From Massilia agilis (GTDB lineage: Bacteria; Pseudomonadota; Gammaproteobacteria; Burkholderiales; Burkholderiaceae_D), in contig NZ_JANUHB010000005.1 in NCBI RefSeq assembly GCF_024756255.1, forward strand, positions 124,001 to 188,000: a stretch of 64,000 bases of DNA, written 5' to 3'. Below, in pieces: positions 26,236 through 61,320 of the stretch (position 1 is its first letter; the number at the start of each line of letters is the position of its first letter). The notes under the pieces are model-generated. The model ran no database searches, was not told the origin of the DNA, and saw only the letters and a program-made list of their open reading frames with translations. A program made the position numbers and the translations under genes.

Positions 26236-26339
26236 GTCGTCCCCGCGAAGGCGGGGACCCATGCTGAGCCAGTAAACACGCGATCAGCTGGTCTGGTGCT
26301 GCAAACGGTCCATGGGTCCCCGCCTGCGCGGGGACGACG
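26236..26339. repeat. GTCGTCCCCGCG-type REP-like inverted pair
   Basis: A forward unit GTCGTCCCCGCGAAGGCG...ACCCAT (26236-26262) and a reverse unit ATGGGTCCCCGCC...GGGGACGAC (26312-26338) separated by about 50 bases. Each unit is itself a small palindrome (CCCCGC / GCGGGG). It lies between the convergent ends of dadA and the LysR gene. Confidence 0.85.
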
Positions 26340-44670: not shown

Positions 44671-46143
44671 ATGTCAGATCCGATCCGTTTCTACTACCGG
44701 GGCGAAGTGCATGAAGTGAACGATGCAGCGCCCACGCGCACGATCCTGCAGCACCTGCGGGAGGACTTGCATTGCACCGGCACCAAGGAAGGCTGTGGTG
44801 AAGGCGATTGCGGCGCGTGCACGGTGGTGGTGGGCTCGATCGAAAACGGGCAGCTGGAACTGAAGACGGTGAACTCGTGCATCCAGTTCCTGCCGACGCT
44901 GGACGGCAAGGCGCTGTTCACGGTGGAGGATTTGCAGCAGCCGAACGGAATGCTGCATCCGGTGCAGCAGGCGCTGGTCGAATGCCACGGGTCGCAGTGC
45001 GGCTTCTGCACGCCCGGCTTTGCCATGTCCCTGTGGGGCATGTACCTCAAGCACGACGGCAAGGCGCCGACCCGCGCGCAGATCGACGATGCGCTTTCCG
45101 GCAACCTGTGCCGCTGCACCGGCTACCGTCCCATCATCGACGCGGCGCAGCGCATGACCGAGCTGCCGCGGGTGGATTTCGATGGCGATGCACTAGCGGG
45201 ACAACTGCGCGGCTTGCAGCGCGATGCGGGCTTCGACTACGCCGGCGCGGGCAAGCGCTTCCACGCGCCGCGCACACTGGACGAACTGGTGCGCCTGCGC
45301 GCCGACTACCCGCACGCGCTGCTGCTGGCCGGCTCCACTGACGTGGGCCTGTGGGTGACCAAGCAGATGCGCGAGCTGGACGACATCATCTACCTGGGCC
45401 AGGTCGAGGAGCTGAAACGGATCGCCGAACGCGACGGCATGATCGAGATCGGCGCCGGGGCCACGCTCAATGACGCCTACGCGGCCGTGTGCCGCCACTA
45501 TCCGGACGAGCTGTCCGAGCTGTGGCAGCGCTTTGCCTCGCTCCCGATCCGCAACGCCGGCACGCTGGGCGGCAACGTGGCCAACGGCTCGCCGATCGGC
45601 GACTCGATGCCATGGCTGATCGCACTGGACAGCCAGGTCGTGCTGCGCGGCCCCGATGGCGAGCGCGTGCTGGCGCTGGAAGACTTCTACCTCGGCTACC
45701 AGCAGAAGGACCTGCGCCCTGGTGAGTTCGTGCAGGCGGTGCGCGTGCCGCTGCCGTATGCCGGGCTGCGGCTGCGGACCTACAAACTGTCCAAGCGCTT
45801 TGACCAGGACATCTCGGCGGTGTGCGCGGCGTTCGCGATCACGCTGGAAGCAGGGCGCATCACGCGCGCCCGCATTGCGTTCGGCGGCATGGCCGCCACG
45901 CCGAAGCGCGCTGCCGCGGCCGAAGCCATGCTGGCCGGCCGCGCCTGGACCGAGGACGTGCTGGCCGAGGCAATGGCGGCGCTGGAACGGGACTACGCGC
46001 CGCTGACCGACATGCGCGCCTCGTCCGCATACCGGATGCAGGCGGCGCGCAACCTGCTGCGCCGCTTCTGGCTCGAGACGCGACCGGCCGATCCGCTGCC
46101 GCGCGAGGCAGTGAATGCGTTCGCGCTGGGAGGGAACGTATGA
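44671..46143 (+). CDS. xdhA: Xanthine dehydrogenase small subunit (2Fe-2S/FAD)
   Basis: 490 aa. The plant-type 2Fe-2S domain has [16 protein letters not shown] (C35-C50), and the second cluster is bound by CGFC and CRC motifs ([14 protein letters not shown] and [10 protein letters not shown]). From about residue 200 an FAD domain follows ([37 protein letters not shown]) with the CO-dehydrogenase flavoprotein C-terminal part. It passes electrons from the XdhB molybdenum site to NAD+. First gene of xdhABC; the stop overlaps the xdhB ATG. The 104-base upstream gap contains a half-site like the uraH/puuE operator. Confidence 0.97.
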
Positions 46144-48473
46144 ACGACGCAGGTACTTCGGTATTGCAGACGGCTGGGTGGACGGCGGTTGGCGTGGCGC
46201 AGCCGCACGAGTCGGCCGCGCTGCATGTGCTCGGCCAGGCCAACTACACGGACGACATCCCGGAAGTGCGCGGCACGCTGCATGCTGCGCTTGGCCTGTC
46301 CAGCAAGCCGCACGCGCGCATCACGGCGATCGACCTGGCGCCCGTGCGCGCGAGCCGCGGCGTGGTGGCAGTGCTGACGGCTGCCGACATCCCCGGCGCC
46401 AACGACTGCGGCCCGATCATCCATGACGACCCGATTCTGGCCGATGGGCTGGTGCAGTATGTTGGCCAGCCGATCTTCGTCGTGGTGGCGGACACCCACG
46501 ACAACGCACGCCGCGCGGCCCGGCTGGCACAGGTGACGTATGAAGAGCTGCCCGCGATCCTCACGCCGCAAGCCGCGCGCGCCGCGCACAGCTACGTGCT
46601 GCCGCCAATGCGGCTGGTGCGGGGCGATGTGGCCGCGGCTTTCGCGCGCGCGCCGCACAAGGTCAGCGGCCAGCTGTACGTCGGCGGCCAGGAGCAGTTC
46701 TACCTCGAGGGCCAGATCGCCTACGCGATTCCGAAGGAAGACCACGGCATGCAGGTGCTGTGCTCGACCCAGCACCCGAGCGAGATGCAGCACGTGGTCG
46801 CGCATGCGCTCGGCCTGCACTCGCATCACGTTGCGGTCGAATGCCGGCGCATGGGCGGCGGCTTCGGCGGCAAGGAATCGCAGTCGGCGCTGTGGGCGGC
46901 GGCAGCGGCAGTGGCGGCGGCGCGGCTCAAGCGCCCGGTCAAGCTGCGCGCGGACCGCGACGACGACATGCTCGTCACCGGCAAGCGCCACTGCTTCCAT
47001 TACGAGTACGAGGTCGGCTACGACGACGAGGGCCGGATCATCGCGGCGAAGGTCGACATGGTGTCGCGCGCGGGGTTTTCGGCCGACCTGTCCGGGCCGG
47101 TGGCCACGCGTGCCGTCTGCCATTTCGACAATACCTACTACCTGTCCGACGTCGAGATTCGCGCGGCCTGCGGCAAGACCAACACCCAGTCCAACACGGC
47201 GTTTCGCGGCTTTGGCGGACCGCAGGGCGCGATCGCGCTCGAATACGTGATCGACGAGATCGCGCGCAAGCTGGGCCGCGACGCGCTGGACATCCGCAAG
47301 CGCAATTTCTACGGCGTCGGCGAGCGCGACCTTACCCCGTACGGGCAGCGCGTCGTGGACAACGTGATCCACGAACTGGTGGCCGAGCTGGAAGCATCGA
47401 GCGAATACCGCGCGCGGCGCGACGCCATCGAATCGTTCAATGCCGCCAGCCCGGTGCTCAAGAAGGGACTGGCGCTCACGCCGGTCAAATTCGGCATCGC
47501 GTTCAACGTGAGCCACCTGAACCAGGCCGGCGCGCTGGTGCACGTTTATGTGGACGGCTCGGTGCTGGTCAACCACGGCGGCACCGAGATGGGGCAGGGC
47601 GTCAACACCAAGGTGATGCAGGTGGTGGCGCACGAACTGGGCGTGGATATGGCACGCGTGCGCATCAGCGCCACCGACACCAGCAAGGTCGCCAACACCT
47701 CGGCCACGGCCGCCTCGACCGGCGCGGACCTGAACGGCAAGGCTGCGCAGGACGCGGCGCGCCAGATCCGCGAGCGGCTGGCGGCATTCGCGGCCAGGGC
47801 GCATGGCGGCAATGCGGAGGACGTGCGCTTTGCGGCCGACACCGTGTTCGTCAATGGCCGCGAGCTGCCGTTCAAGGAGCTGGTGCAGGCCGCCTACCTC
47901 ACCCGCGTGCAGTTGTGGTCCGACGGCTACTACGCCACGCCAGGCTTGTCGTGGGACGCCTCGACCATGACCGGCAACCCGTTCCAGTATTTTGCGTACG
48001 GGGCGGCGGTATCCGAGGTGGTGGTCGACACGCTGACCGGCGAGTGGAAGCTGCTGCGCGCCGACTGTCTGTACGACGCCGGCAATTCGCTCAACCCGGC
48101 GATCGACATCGGCCAGGTGGAAGGCGCCTTCATCCAGGGCATGGGCTGGCTCACGACCGAGGAACTGTGGTGGAACGCGGGCGGCAAGCTGATGACGCAT
48201 GCGCCGTCCACGTACAAGATCCCGGCTGTGTCGGACTGTCCGCAGGACTTCCGCGTGCGCCTCTTCAAGAACACGAACGTGGCCGACTCGATCCACCGTT
48301 CCAAGGCGGTGGGCGAGCCGCCGCTGCTGCTGCCGTTCTCGGTGTTCTTTGCCATTCGCGATGCGATTTCGGCCGTGGGCGGCCATCAGGTCAACCCGCC
48401 GCTGAACGCGCCCGCGACCAGCGAAGAGATCCTGAAGGCGATCACCGCCGTGCAGGCGGCAAGGACCGCATGA
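46140..48473 (+). CDS. xdhB: Xanthine dehydrogenase molybdopterin-binding subunit
   Basis: 777 aa Moco subunit that hydroxylates hypoxanthine and xanthine to urate. Start is the ATG overlapping the xdhA stop. Landmarks: [63 protein letters not shown] and the substrate arginine in that loop, [13 protein letters not shown], and the catalytic glutamate segment [11 protein letters not shown] near the C-terminus. Length matches the bacterial large subunit. Its stop overlaps the xdhC start. Confidence 0.97.
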
Positions 48474-50095
48474 TGGAAGCCTGGCTGGCACAAGCAGGCG
48501 CAACGCCCGCGGTGCTGGTGACCGTGGCGATCGTCGAAGGGTCCGGGCCGCGCGAGCCGGGAGCGAAGATGCTCGTGGATGCGCGCGCCATGCATGGCAC
48601 CATCGGCGGCGGGCATCTGGAGCTGCGCGCGGCACAGGTCGCGCGCGCGATGCTGGCGGCAGGCGAGACGCGCCGGCTGGAGCGTTTCGCACTGGGCCCG
48701 AGCCTGGGCCAGTGCTGCGGGGGTGTGGTGCACCTGGCGTTCGAGCTTTTCGACCACGAGCAAGGCGCGCTGCTGAAGGAACGCAGCAATGAGGACACGT
48801 GGCGCCTGGTCGCACTCGATGGAGCTCCCGGCCGGGCGCTCTTTGACGCCAACGGATCTGTAGTCGTCCCGGCGGAAGCCGGGACCCATAGGCCATCTGA
48901 GCAGCCGCACCGTAATCGATCGGACTGCCACTCCAGCACCGTCGTCCCCGCGCAGGCGGGGACCCATGGACCGCTTGGGCAGCCGCCCAGCGGCAACCCC
49001 GCAGCTGGCCTCACCCCCGTCGTCCCGGCGAAAGCCGGGACCCATAGACCATCTGAGCAGCCGCACCGTAATCGATCGGACTGCCACACTAGCACCGTCG
49101 TCCCCGCGCAGGCGGGGACCCATGGACCGTTTGGGCGGCCGGAAAGTGAGCATTCACAGCGCGACCTCAGCATGGGTCCCGGCCTGCGCCGGGACGACGG
49201 GCTTAGGGAGCGGGCAGAGAACGAGCTGGCGCAGCACGAGCTCAGCATGGGTCCCCGCCTGCGCGGGGACGACGGGCTTGGGGAGCGGGCAGGGTACGAG
49301 CTGCCGCAGCGCGACCTCAGCATGGGTCCCGGCGTGCGCCGGGACGACGGGCTTGGGGAGCGGGCAGAGAACGAGCTGGCGCAGCACGAGCTCAGCATGG
49401 GTCCCCGCCTGCGCGGGGACGACGGGCTTGGGGAGCGCGCAGGGTACGAGCTGCCGCAGCGCGACCTCAGCACGGGCCCCGACACGCCGCCGGTCTTTGA
49501 CCGCCGCCGGGGCACGCACGTGATGCAGGAACAGGACGGCCGCCGCTGGCTGGTGGACCTGGTTGCCGCCCCGCGCGCGCAGCTGGTGCTGTTCGGCGCC
49601 GGCCACGTGGGCGCGGCCATCGTGCGGGCGCTCGCCGACTTGCCTTGCCGCGTCACCTGGGTGGACGAGCGCGACGAGCTGTTCCCGCCAGCCGTTCCGT
49701 CCAACGTCACGATCGAGGCCACCGACACGCCTGAAGCCGTGGTGGCCAGCGCGCCGGACAACGCAACGTATCTGGTCATGACCCACAGCCACGCACTTGA
49801 CCAGCGCCTGTCGGAAGCGATACTGTCGCGCCCCGGCGTCGGCTGGTTCGGACTGATCGGCTCGCACACGAAGCGCAAGCAGTTCGAGCACCGCCTGCGT
49901 GCGCGCGGCATCGATGACCGGCGCATCGCGGCGATGGCCTGCCCGGTCGGCGTGCCCGGCATCGAAGGCAAGCAGCCGGCGGTGATCGCCGCCGCGGTCG
50001 CCGCGCAGCTGCTGCAGGTGTGGGAGGCGCAGGCCGCGCAGCAGAGCGCCACGCCCGTCGCCATGAAACTCGTCGCATCCTCAGAAAGAATTTGA
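48470..50095 (+). CDS. xdhC: Xanthine dehydrogenase accessory protein XdhC with an in-frame repeat array
   Basis: 541 aa; typical XdhC proteins are roughly 250-350 aa. XdhC binds and sulfurates molybdenum cofactor and delivers it to XdhB. The N-terminal domain is intact (VTVAIVEGSGPREPGAKMLVD, GTIGGGHLELRAAQ, GQCCGGVVHL, to about residue 130) and so is the C-terminal Rossmann domain from about residue 370 (LVLFGAGHVGAAIVRAL, LIGSHTKRKQFEHRL, CPVG..GIEGKQPAVIAAAVAAQLL). Between them residues ~132-338 are encoded by palindromic repeats: VVPAQAGTH-type units, then four 25-residue units starting MGPxLRxDDG. No stop interrupts the array. Start and stop overlap xdhB and guaD, so the operon is preserved. 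Whether the protein works, or the linker is removed, is unknown. Confidence 0.9.
   Translation: MMEAWLAQAGATPAVLVTVAIVEGSGPREPGAKMLVDARAMHGTIGGGHLELRAAQVARAMLAAGETRRLERFALGPSLGQCCGGVVHLAFELFDHEQGALLKERSNEDTWRLVALDGAPGRALFDANGSVVVPAEAGTHRPSEQPHRNRSDCHSSTVVPAQAGTHGPLGQPPSGNPAAGLTPVVPAKAGTHRPSEQPHRNRSDCHTSTVVPAQAGTHGPFGRPESEHSQRDLSMGPGLRRDDGLRERAENELAQHELSMGPRLRGDDGLGERAGYELPQRDLSMGPGVRRDDGLGERAENELAQHELSMGPRLRGDDGLGERAGYELPQRDLSTGPDTPPVFDRRRGTHVMQEQDGRRWLVDLVAAPRAQLVLFGAGHVGAAIVRALADLPCRVTWVDERDELFPPAVPSNVTIEATDTPEAVVASAPDNATYLVMTHSHALDQRLSEAILSRPGVGWFGLIGSHTKRKQFEHRLRARGIDDRRIAAMACPVGVPGIEGKQPAVIAAAVAAQLLQVWEAQAAQQSATPVAMKLVASSERI
48863..49485. repeat. Array of nine GTCGTCCCCGCG-type palindromes inside xdhC
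   Basis: Four forward units start at 48863, 48941, 49019 and 49097 (78 bp apart); four reverse units start at 49171, 49246, 49321 and 49396 (75 bp apart), with a decayed ninth at 49471. Units 1 and 3 with their following spacers are nearly identical, and 49171-49320 is repeated at 49321-49470. All spacings within each half are multiples of three. The same unit occurs between genes at 26.24 and 61.23 kb. Confidence 0.93.
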
Positions 50096-51411
50096 TGTCA
50101 ACCGCAACAGAGAACCTGCAGGCCTTTCGCGCAAGCCTGCTGTACTTCCGCGCCGACCCGGCGTTCGACGACCAGGCCCACGTGTGGCACGAGGACGGCC
50201 TGCTGCTCGTCGAGGGCGGCCGGATCAAGGCTGCGGGCGACCACCAGGCGCTGGCCGCAAGCCTGCCGCCGGGCATGCCTGTGCACGACTACCGCGGCAT
50301 GGTCATCACGCCGGGCTTCATCGACACCCACCTGCATTATCCGCAGACGGACATGATCGCCTCGCCCGCGCCGGGCCTGCTGCCGTGGCTGGAGACCTAC
50401 ACCTTCCCGACCGAACGCCGCTTCGGCGACCCCGCCCATGCGCGCGCGGTGGCCGAGTTTTTCCTCGACGAGCTGCTGCGCTGCGGGACCACCACCGCCA
50501 TGGTCTACTGCAGCGTGCACCGCGAGTCGGTGGACGCGTTCTTCGAGGCGAGCGAGGCACGCGAGCTGCGCATGGTGGCCGGCAAGGTGCTGATGGACCG
50601 CCACTGCCCCGAGTTCCTGCGCGATCCCGTCGATGCCGGCGCGCGCGAGAGCGAAGCGCTGATCGGCAAATGGCACAAGCGCGGCCGCAACCTGTACGCG
50701 ATCACGCCACGCTTTGCGCCCACCTCCAGCGAGGACCAGCTGCGCCTGGCCGGCGAGCTGGCGCGCGCCCATCCGGACACCTTCATCCAGACCCACGTAT
50801 CGGAGAACGAGGACGAATGCGCCTGGGTGCGCTCGCTGTTCCCGTCCGCGCGCAGCTACCTGCACGTGTACGACCACTACGGCCTGATGCGCCCGCGCGC
50901 CATGTTCGGCCACTGCATCTGGCTGGACGAGAACGACTTCGCGCGCATGGCCGACACGCAATCGGCGGCCGCCGTGTGCCCGACCTCGAACCTGTTCCTG
51001 GGCAGCGGCCTGTTCGACTTCGACAAGGCCGATTGCGCCCGCGCGCTGCTGGCGCTGGGCACGGACGTGGGCGCCGGCACCTCGTTCTCGATGTTGCAAA
51101 CAATGAATGAAGCGTATAAAGTTGCGCGACTGAAAGGCAGCTACCTGCCGGCGCTGCGGATGTTCTACCTCGCCACGCTCGGCGCTGCACGCAGCATGCA
51201 ACTCGAAGGCGCGATCGGCAGCCTGGCGCCGGGGAACGAGGCCGACTTCATCGTGCTCGACCCCAAGGCCACGCCGCTGCTGGCGCGTCGTACTTCACAC
51301 TGTGACACGCTCGAGGAACTGCTGTTTGCGCTGGCGCTGCTGGGCGACGACCGCGCCGTGCGCGCGACCTTTGCGGCAGGACGCAAGGTGCACGAACGCG
51401 CGGCATCCTGA
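50095..51411 (+). CDS. guaD: Guanine deaminase
   Basis: 438 aa amidohydrolase converting guanine to xanthine, the substrate of XdhAB. Start is the ATG overlapping the xdhC stop (TGATG). Zinc-site motif FIDTHLHYPQTDM, the CSVHRESVDAFFE region, THVSENEDEC, FGHCIWL and the aspartate segment LGTDVGAGTSFSML are characteristic of GuaD. No signal peptide, so cytoplasmic. Followed after 21 bases by the adenosine deaminase gene. Confidence 0.96.
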   Translation: MSTATENLQAFRASLLYFRADPAFDDQAHVWHEDGLLLVEGGRIKAAGDHQALAASLPPGMPVHDYRGMVITPGFIDTHLHYPQTDMIASPAPGLLPWLETYTFPTERRFGDPAHARAVAEFFLDELLRCGTTTAMVYCSVHRESVDAFFEASEARELRMVAGKVLMDRHCPEFLRDPVDAGARESEALIGKWHKRGRNLYAITPRFAPTSSEDQLRLAGELARAHPDTFIQTHVSENEDECAWVRSLFPSARSYLHVYDHYGLMRPRAMFGHCIWLDENDFARMADTQSAAAVCPTSNLFLGSGLFDFDKADCARALLALGTDVGAGTSFSMLQTMNEAYKVARLKGSYLPALRMFYLATLGAARSMQLEGAIGSLAPGNEADFIVLDPKATPLLARRTSHCDTLEELLFALALLGDDRAVRATFAAGRKVHERAAS

Positions 51412-61226: not shown

Positions 61227-61320
61227 GTCGTCCCCGCGAAGGCGGGGACCCATAGAACGATTGAATCTATGGCAGCGTTCCAGCGCGCTCAGCATGGGTC
61301 CCCGCCTTCGCGGGGACGAC
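61227..61320. repeat. GTCGTCCCCGCG-type REP-like inverted pair
   Basis: Forward unit (61227-61253) and reverse unit (61294-61320) separated by 40 bases, between the convergent mono-haem protein and ABC permease genes. Same family as 26.24 kb and the xdhC array. Confidence 0.85.

Follow-up and report, generated by a model that had tools for sequence, protein, structure and literature searches.

In the soil bacterium Massilia agilis, the xanthine dehydrogenase helper gene xdhC lies between xdhB and a guanine deaminase gene and carries an array of palindromic REP units in frame. We analyzed a window of 64,000 nucleotides (the whole stretch of DNA, to which all positions refer unless another locus is named) from a draft genome assembly of 5.16 Mb in 32 contigs. 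The XdhC product, with a mass of 57.7 kDa computed from its 541 aa, scores 305.6 bits against TIGR02964 (curated cut-off 161.6) and both domains are present. Proteins of the TIGR02964 (XdhC) family bind molybdenum cofactor and act in xanthine dehydrogenase maturation, a putative role for the 541-aa protein. As stated in an initial annotation made from the sequence alone, the overlaps with both neighboring genes are kept: the xdhB stop at 48471-48473 overlaps the xdhC start, and the guanine deaminase gene begins at 50095, within the xdhC stop (50093-50095). The domains on either side of the array were also described as intact, and Pfam matches place PF02625 at residues 10-73 and PF13478 at residues 372-514. 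A PDB sequence search with XdhC gave matches limited to the C-terminal part (2we7, 3on5). The features of the locus are as follows.

46137..48473, plus strand: xdhB, stop overlapping the xdhC start (TIGR02965, 1294.4 bits)
48470..50095, plus strand: xdhC, 541 aa, with the in-frame REP array (open reading frame and profile matches)
48497..48688, plus strand: PF02625 (XdhC_CoxI domain), residues 10-73 (Pfam match)
48854..49507, plus strand: expanded linker, residues 129-346 (218 aa), from span comparison with the empty linker of M. horti (15 aa)
48863..49169, plus strand: forward half of the array, 156-bp period, 2.0 copies (Tandem Repeats Finder)
48863..48889, plus strand: REP unit F1, CCGG-type stem, tag AGTC (core match)
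48941..48967, plus strand: REP unit F2, CCCC-type stem (core match)
49019..49045, plus strand: REP unit F3, CCGG-type stem (core match)
49097..49123, plus strand: REP unit F4, CCCC-type stem (core match)
49157..49481, plus strand: reverse half of the array, 75/150-bp period, 150-bp unit with 97% matches (Tandem Repeats Finder)
49172..49198, minus strand: REP unit R1, CCGG-type stem (core match)
49247..49273, minus strand: REP unit R2, CCCC-type stem (core match)
49322..49348, minus strand: REP unit R3, CCGG-type stem (core match)
49397..49423, minus strand: REP unit R4, CCCC-type stem (core match)
49457..49490, minus strand: decayed ninth unit, limits approximate (periodicity ends near 49481)
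49583..50011, plus strand: PF13478 (XdhC Rossmann domain), residues 372-514 (Pfam match)
50095..51411, plus strand: guanine deaminase gene, start overlapping the xdhC stop (TIGR02967, 576.3 bits)

A degenerate REP core matches all eight array units with zero mismatches, and at up to three mismatches it matches 12 times in the 64-kb window and never in 100 shuffled windows. Elsewhere in the window, at 26236-26338 and 61227-61320, the same CGTC family is represented by two inverted dimers of the ordinary kind. Core matches and Tandem Repeats Finder agree on the arrangement first described, namely four forward and four reverse units plus a decayed ninth, and the unit starts confirm steps of 78 bp between forward units and 75 bp between reverse units; the distance from F4 to R1 is 75 bp. 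Units with CCGG-type and CCCC-type stems alternate along the array. Tandem Repeats Finder detects a period of 78 over 48863-49141, of 156 over 48863-49169, and of both 75 and 150 over 49157-49481, and its 150-bp unit with 97% matches bears out the reported tandem duplication. The reading frame remains open through the array, giving the 541-aa product. We therefore confirm that the array seen in the initial annotation is real; the interpretation placed on it is partly supported, as described below.

The units follow the layout CGTC-GTCCCCGC-GCAG-GCGGGGAC-CCA, or a CCGG variant of it. An unpaired CGTC tag stands at one end of seven of the eight array units (AGTC in F1), a CCA tail is present in all eight, and the stem-loop GTCCCCGC-GCAG-GCGGGGAC has the 8-9 bp stem and 4-5 nt loop of CGTC-tagged REPs, a class that, in the portions of the survey of Di Nocera et al. 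2013 (PMC3733652) used here, includes neisserial dRS3 and Rickettsia RPE-4/RPE-6. According to the same portions, CGTC REPs have A-T at the first and second stem positions 'almost invariably', and here the first stem pair is G-C and the second T-A. The G-C pair weakens membership in the CGTC class but does not exclude it, because that paper calls A-T usual and not obligatory. The M. agilis genome contains 324 copies at up to three mismatches (159 forward and 165 reverse), as opposed to none for a reversed-pattern control, and a pair of one forward and one reverse unit accounts for 78 of its 110 REP clusters. Matches to the CGTC-type REP were found in 22 of 46 genomes, 21 of them from the same genus. 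A search for the Y1_Tnp family revealed no dedicated transposase beside the CGTC repeats. The sole Y1_Tnp match in the genome (L186, G000:C29:93826-94149) is RAYT-like and has a GTAG-type repeat remnant just downstream, and the 3.3 kb around it contain no CGTC-type unit. The CGTC-type repeat thus lacks the REPIN/RAYT arrangement, in which a RAYT gene is flanked by the same repeat, and we rejected the RAYT of this genome as mobilizer of the element on these grounds.

We compared XdhC in 81 rows, made up of M. agilis and 80 named loci (the best 80 of 526 relatives), and at all 80 related loci both domains are encoded in one open reading frame. Most rows (59) have no long insert, while CGTC REPs are present in three, a GTAG-type REP in nine and other long linkers (at least 105 residues by that measure) in ten. 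This argues against the region being a true domain conserved in close relatives, a possibility raised at the outset that we rejected both on the 59 rows and on the lack of constraint inside the insert. The three CGTC carriers form a single clade (98/81) in the tree of the 81 rows, and by the C-terminal domain M. solisilvae JCM 31607 (97%) and M. terrae JCM 31606 (85%) are the closest named relatives among the best 80 of 526. Between LFDAN and RGTHVMQ the span is 15 aa in M. horti, where the linker is empty, 40 aa in M. terrae, 75 aa in M. solisilvae and 218 aa in M. agilis. The unit number also differs between the three sister species, from two in M. terrae (one forward and one reverse) to three in M. 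solisilvae (two forward, one of them with 12 extra bases, and one reverse) and eight in M. agilis, all from draft assemblies in which the count may err by one or more entire units. All three carriers encode VVPAxAGTH and MGPxxRxDDG peptides in their REPs.

The same linker holds a GTAG-type REP, in frame and slightly upstream, in nine of the 81 rows (L087, L091, L093, L094, L097, L098, L101, L119 and L124; Massilia/Telluria), with only half a GTAG dimer in L119. Because these carriers belong to a different clade, where empty rows are interspersed among them, gains are not separable from losses, but GTAG-REP gains or clean losses were repeated. At another locus (L061, G012:C1:776000-780000), the xdhC linker has an Ala-rich insert of ~59 residues with no recognisable REP.

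The spacers between units record part of the history of the array. Seven of the eight resemble another spacer of the xdhC array (E <= 0.01): F1 and F3 are identical over 39 nt, R1/R3 and R2/R4 are 98% alike and R1/R2 88%. The F4 spacer has 15 nt in common with those of R2 and R4, and the F2 spacer gave no match in the array or at any other locus compared (E <= 0.01). Outside the array, the F4-R1 spacer alone gave a match among the loci compared (E <= 0.01), at xdhC of M. solisilvae (88% over 34 nt); the arrival of extra units from other loci is therefore not supported. Spacer likeness within the array is thus consistent with an initial dimer that was duplicated locally, the 75-bp duplications being probably older than the 150-bp one.

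Selection differs between the insert and its flanks. In the comparison with M. solisilvae, the N part of xdhC (118 codons) has a dN/dS of 0.179 and the C part (192 codons) one of 0.080, close to the 0.079 of xdhB (778 codons). Comparisons with M. terrae, M. horti and M. agrisoli give 0.10-0.20 for the N part and 0.24-0.28 for the C part, so the C-part value of 0.08 is not typical of greater distances. The alignable insert, in which possible homogenisation of REP cores would distort the counts, has a dN/dS of 1.34 over 62 codons relative to M. solisilvae (26 nonsynonymous and 7 synonymous changes; 0.93 and 2.27 for its two pieces), compared with 30 nonsynonymous and 63 synonymous changes in the flanks (Fisher p = 4.5e-6). 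Values of 0.69 and 0.67 were obtained when duplicated halves within the array were compared with each other. A constrained second half lying behind 600 bp that drift yet stay in phase is most simply explained by straight-through translation of a tolerated linker. The earlier suggestion that copy number tunes XdhC finds no support here, with an insert peptide that shows no purifying selection between constrained flanks.

How often such units enter genes was examined in 110 distinct REP clusters of M. agilis (the window and 122 loci, with clusters near locus ends dropped), 64 of M. solisilvae (G002, sampled without its copies of L187, L202 and L236) and 71 of genome G012. A cluster was called intragenic when a coding-like open frame spanned it, using a codon-usage test that was trained on genes around xdhC and is crude, in that it can miss cases near gene ends. 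In-frame intragenic clusters number four of 110 in M. agilis (0/46 in the first version of the test, 3/110 in the second and 4/110 in the final one, whose threshold was loosened after the L202 reading frame had been seen), one of 64 in M. solisilvae (xdhC itself) and none of 71 in G012. An open frame through the array is unremarkable by itself, because the REP core is stop-free in all six frames and 430 of the 660 cluster-by-frame combinations of M. agilis remain open throughout the cluster. For the same reasons we rejected the idea that frames open in both orientations are a special property. In the four intragenic loci of M. agilis, the frame used for the forward units is always the one giving VVPAxAGTH, never either of the two Arg-rich ones, four loci being too few for a claim of bias. 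A one-sided strand orientation of the REP in G012 was rejected, as exact copies occur on both strands.

Codon-multiple spacing means more than the open frame. All ten spacings in the two coding arrays (seven in xdhC, three in L202) are multiples of three, compared with 10 of 30 in other M. agilis arrays of at least three units (Fisher p = 4e-4), with the caveat that duplicated units are not independent. When dimers are included, 50 of all 111 non-coding spacings are multiples of three, which is above one third (p = 0.011), and the ten of ten differ from those as well (p = 6e-4). Codon-multiple spacings make up 4/9 in M. solisilvae arrays and 0/2 in G012 arrays, and one intergenic array (L070) has them throughout. 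The repeat had been described as a family that can enter coding sequence without frameshift; this is true of xdhC, but it overstates a family property, given four intragenic clusters in 110 and 10 codon-multiple spacings in 30.

The other genes with in-frame units vary in how clearly they record insertion. L202 (G000:C12:1320700-1323900, minus strand) encodes a putative membrane protein with no Pfam match and four in-frame REP units 75 bp apart, and its copy in M. solisilvae (L254), with two units, is shorter by exactly 50 residues. The sequence after the array has a dN/dS of 0.18 over 253 codons. L202 shows the same kind of unit-number change as xdhC in a second gene. L236 (G000:C12:1197700-1200700, minus strand 711-2465) combines PF05114 (MbnB/TglH/ChrH, 34-295) and DUF2063 (323-414) in one open reading frame, with a REP unit at residue 305, between the two, that encodes VVPAQAGTH and is decayed in M. 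solisilvae. It is not a clear insertion, because in four other relatives a linker of about equal length contains no REP. Among five relatives examined at L187, three are gapped and one differs in sequence, and in M. solisilvae the copy is decayed and longer by 7 residues.

Overall, we consider it likely (probability roughly 0.8) that the xdhC array is a tolerated selfish insertion in the XdhC interdomain linker, enlarged by local tandem duplication and held in frame by selection. The insertion would have begun with a CGTC-tagged REP dimer, composed of a forward and a reverse unit, that entered the linker in frame in an ancestor shared by M. terrae, M. solisilvae and M. agilis. Three circumstances would account for its being tolerated: no reading frame of the element contains a stop codon, its length chanced to preserve phase, and the insertion point falls in neither recognised domain. 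Tandem duplications at the site, of 75-78 bp units and then of 150-156 bp, would have enlarged the array to eight or nine units in the M. agilis lineage, with slippage or recombination as the probable mechanism, and only whole-codon changes would have been kept because the downstream XdhC domain was still needed. The array would be translated as a polar linker of ~200 residues, rich in Gly, Arg and Pro and probably disordered, whose own sequence drifts. This reading draws on computed results, namely the ladder of unit numbers within a single clade, the spacer similarity inside the array, the codon-multiple lengths, and purifying selection that acts on the flanks and is absent inside; translation of the insert, its disorder and neutrality and the order of duplications are what we infer.

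Alternatively, the linker may be adaptive, with unit number tuning the distance or flexibility between the XdhC domains and hence xanthine dehydrogenase maturation. In its favor are the whole-codon steps in unit number between species and the presence, in 9 of 81 rows, of another REP superfamily at almost this position, but the encoded peptide drifts with no visible constraint and length varies anyway, 59 of the 81 rows being without a long insert and ten more being long without a recognised REP. We regard this explanation as quite improbable. Much the same applies to a damaged or split gene, in which the array blocks translation and the C domain is made from an internal start, or to an incipient pseudogene. 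The reverse units read ATGGGTCCC in frame and so supply in-frame ATG codons, and the predicted mRNA fold of the array is very stable, at -403.1 kcal/mol. Against this, three species keep an open frame with lengths in whole codons, both domains share one reading frame at every one of the 80 related loci, and purifying selection acts on either side of the array, with the C part constrained to the same degree as xdhB in the comparison with M. solisilvae. The only other XdhC_C-like match in the M. agilis genome, the sole one among the matches listed, is just 28% identical. A split or failing gene is therefore very unlikely.

The palindromes could instead serve as nucleic acid, the coding effect being secondary, through a hairpin in mRNA or DNA that acts in attenuation between xdhB and the guanine deaminase gene, in mRNA stability or in protein binding. 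A large hairpin formed by the two oppositely oriented halves, as first proposed, is possible: the RNA fold has z = -11.36 (20 shuffles), and the predicted structure nests long-range pairs between matching unit types (F2-R4, F3-R3 and F4-R2), with F1 and R1 self-folded. Any use of this hairpin is putative, and the strong z-score is expected of inverted REP arrays. Since 106 of 110 clusters have the same palindromes without spanning a coding frame, and M. terrae has one dimer only at the xdhC site, we give this function little weight. Least probable is an assembly artefact, with a false join or a copy number that was collapsed or expanded. The region is a repetitive 600 bp in a 32-contig draft, but most neighboring spacers can be told apart, phase is kept, and xdhC of M. 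solisilvae, from a separate assembly, also carries an insert at this position, one of whose spacers is clearly homologous. In addition to the tolerated insertion that we favor, a broader proposal is speculative and rather doubtful: that the XdhC linker in Massilia is a recurrent landing site at which CGTC and GTAG palindromes are made into protein, with codon-step expansion yielding disordered sequence whose length may affect cofactor delivery.

The xdhC array is an extreme form of a known phenomenon. In the portions of PMC3733652 used here, intragenic CGTC and GTAG REPs in frame are already described, Thauera and R. conorii having clusters that encode 43-82 residues, and REP insertions are said to be possibly neutral in flexible linkers. 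The Massilia repeats resemble the CGTC REPs of these portions in their CGTC tag, 8-bp stem, 4-nt loop and CCA tail and in occurring mostly as dimers, mainly intergenic with some in-frame intragenic copies and with no adjoining transposase gene. They differ in the first stem pair, which is G-C here and usually A-T there, and in that clusters are rare there and the largest REP-encoded regions reach 43-82 aa, compared with ~200 here; Massilia is absent from the main text of that paper. A literature search, mostly outside subscription journals, gave no match for the peptide PAQAGTH and, among the titles and opening lines of abstracts listed, no description of the xdhC array. Rickettsia palindromic elements (RPE) are likewise palindromic mobile DNA in frame inside conserved genes, and a guanylate kinase containing an RPE is translated into an active enzyme whose substrate affinity is altered, the insertion being judged neutral or slightly detrimental in the sections of PMC2229807 drawn on here. 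RPEs are 105-146 bp in these sections, whereas the units here are short, tandem, in both orientations and different in number between species. As in the REPINs and tandem REP arrays of Pseudomonas fluorescens SBW25 (Bertels and Rainey 2011, PMC3116915, in the sections considered), inverted pairs are the basic unit and tandem clusters are ordered, but clusters there are extragenic and repeats lie near RAYT genes, while the array here is coding. Compared with the REP-encoded regions in those portions of the Di Nocera survey, the xdhC array is longer, contains both orientations and varies in unit number between sister species. In-frame REPs appear in the same portions of the survey as single states; what is new is a history, with empty, two-, three- and eight-unit states in sister species, a second gene that behaves alike, and constrained flanks set against an unconstrained insert. 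The effect of mobile palindromes on host proteins thereby becomes directly testable, with growth on xanthine as a scorable phenotype.
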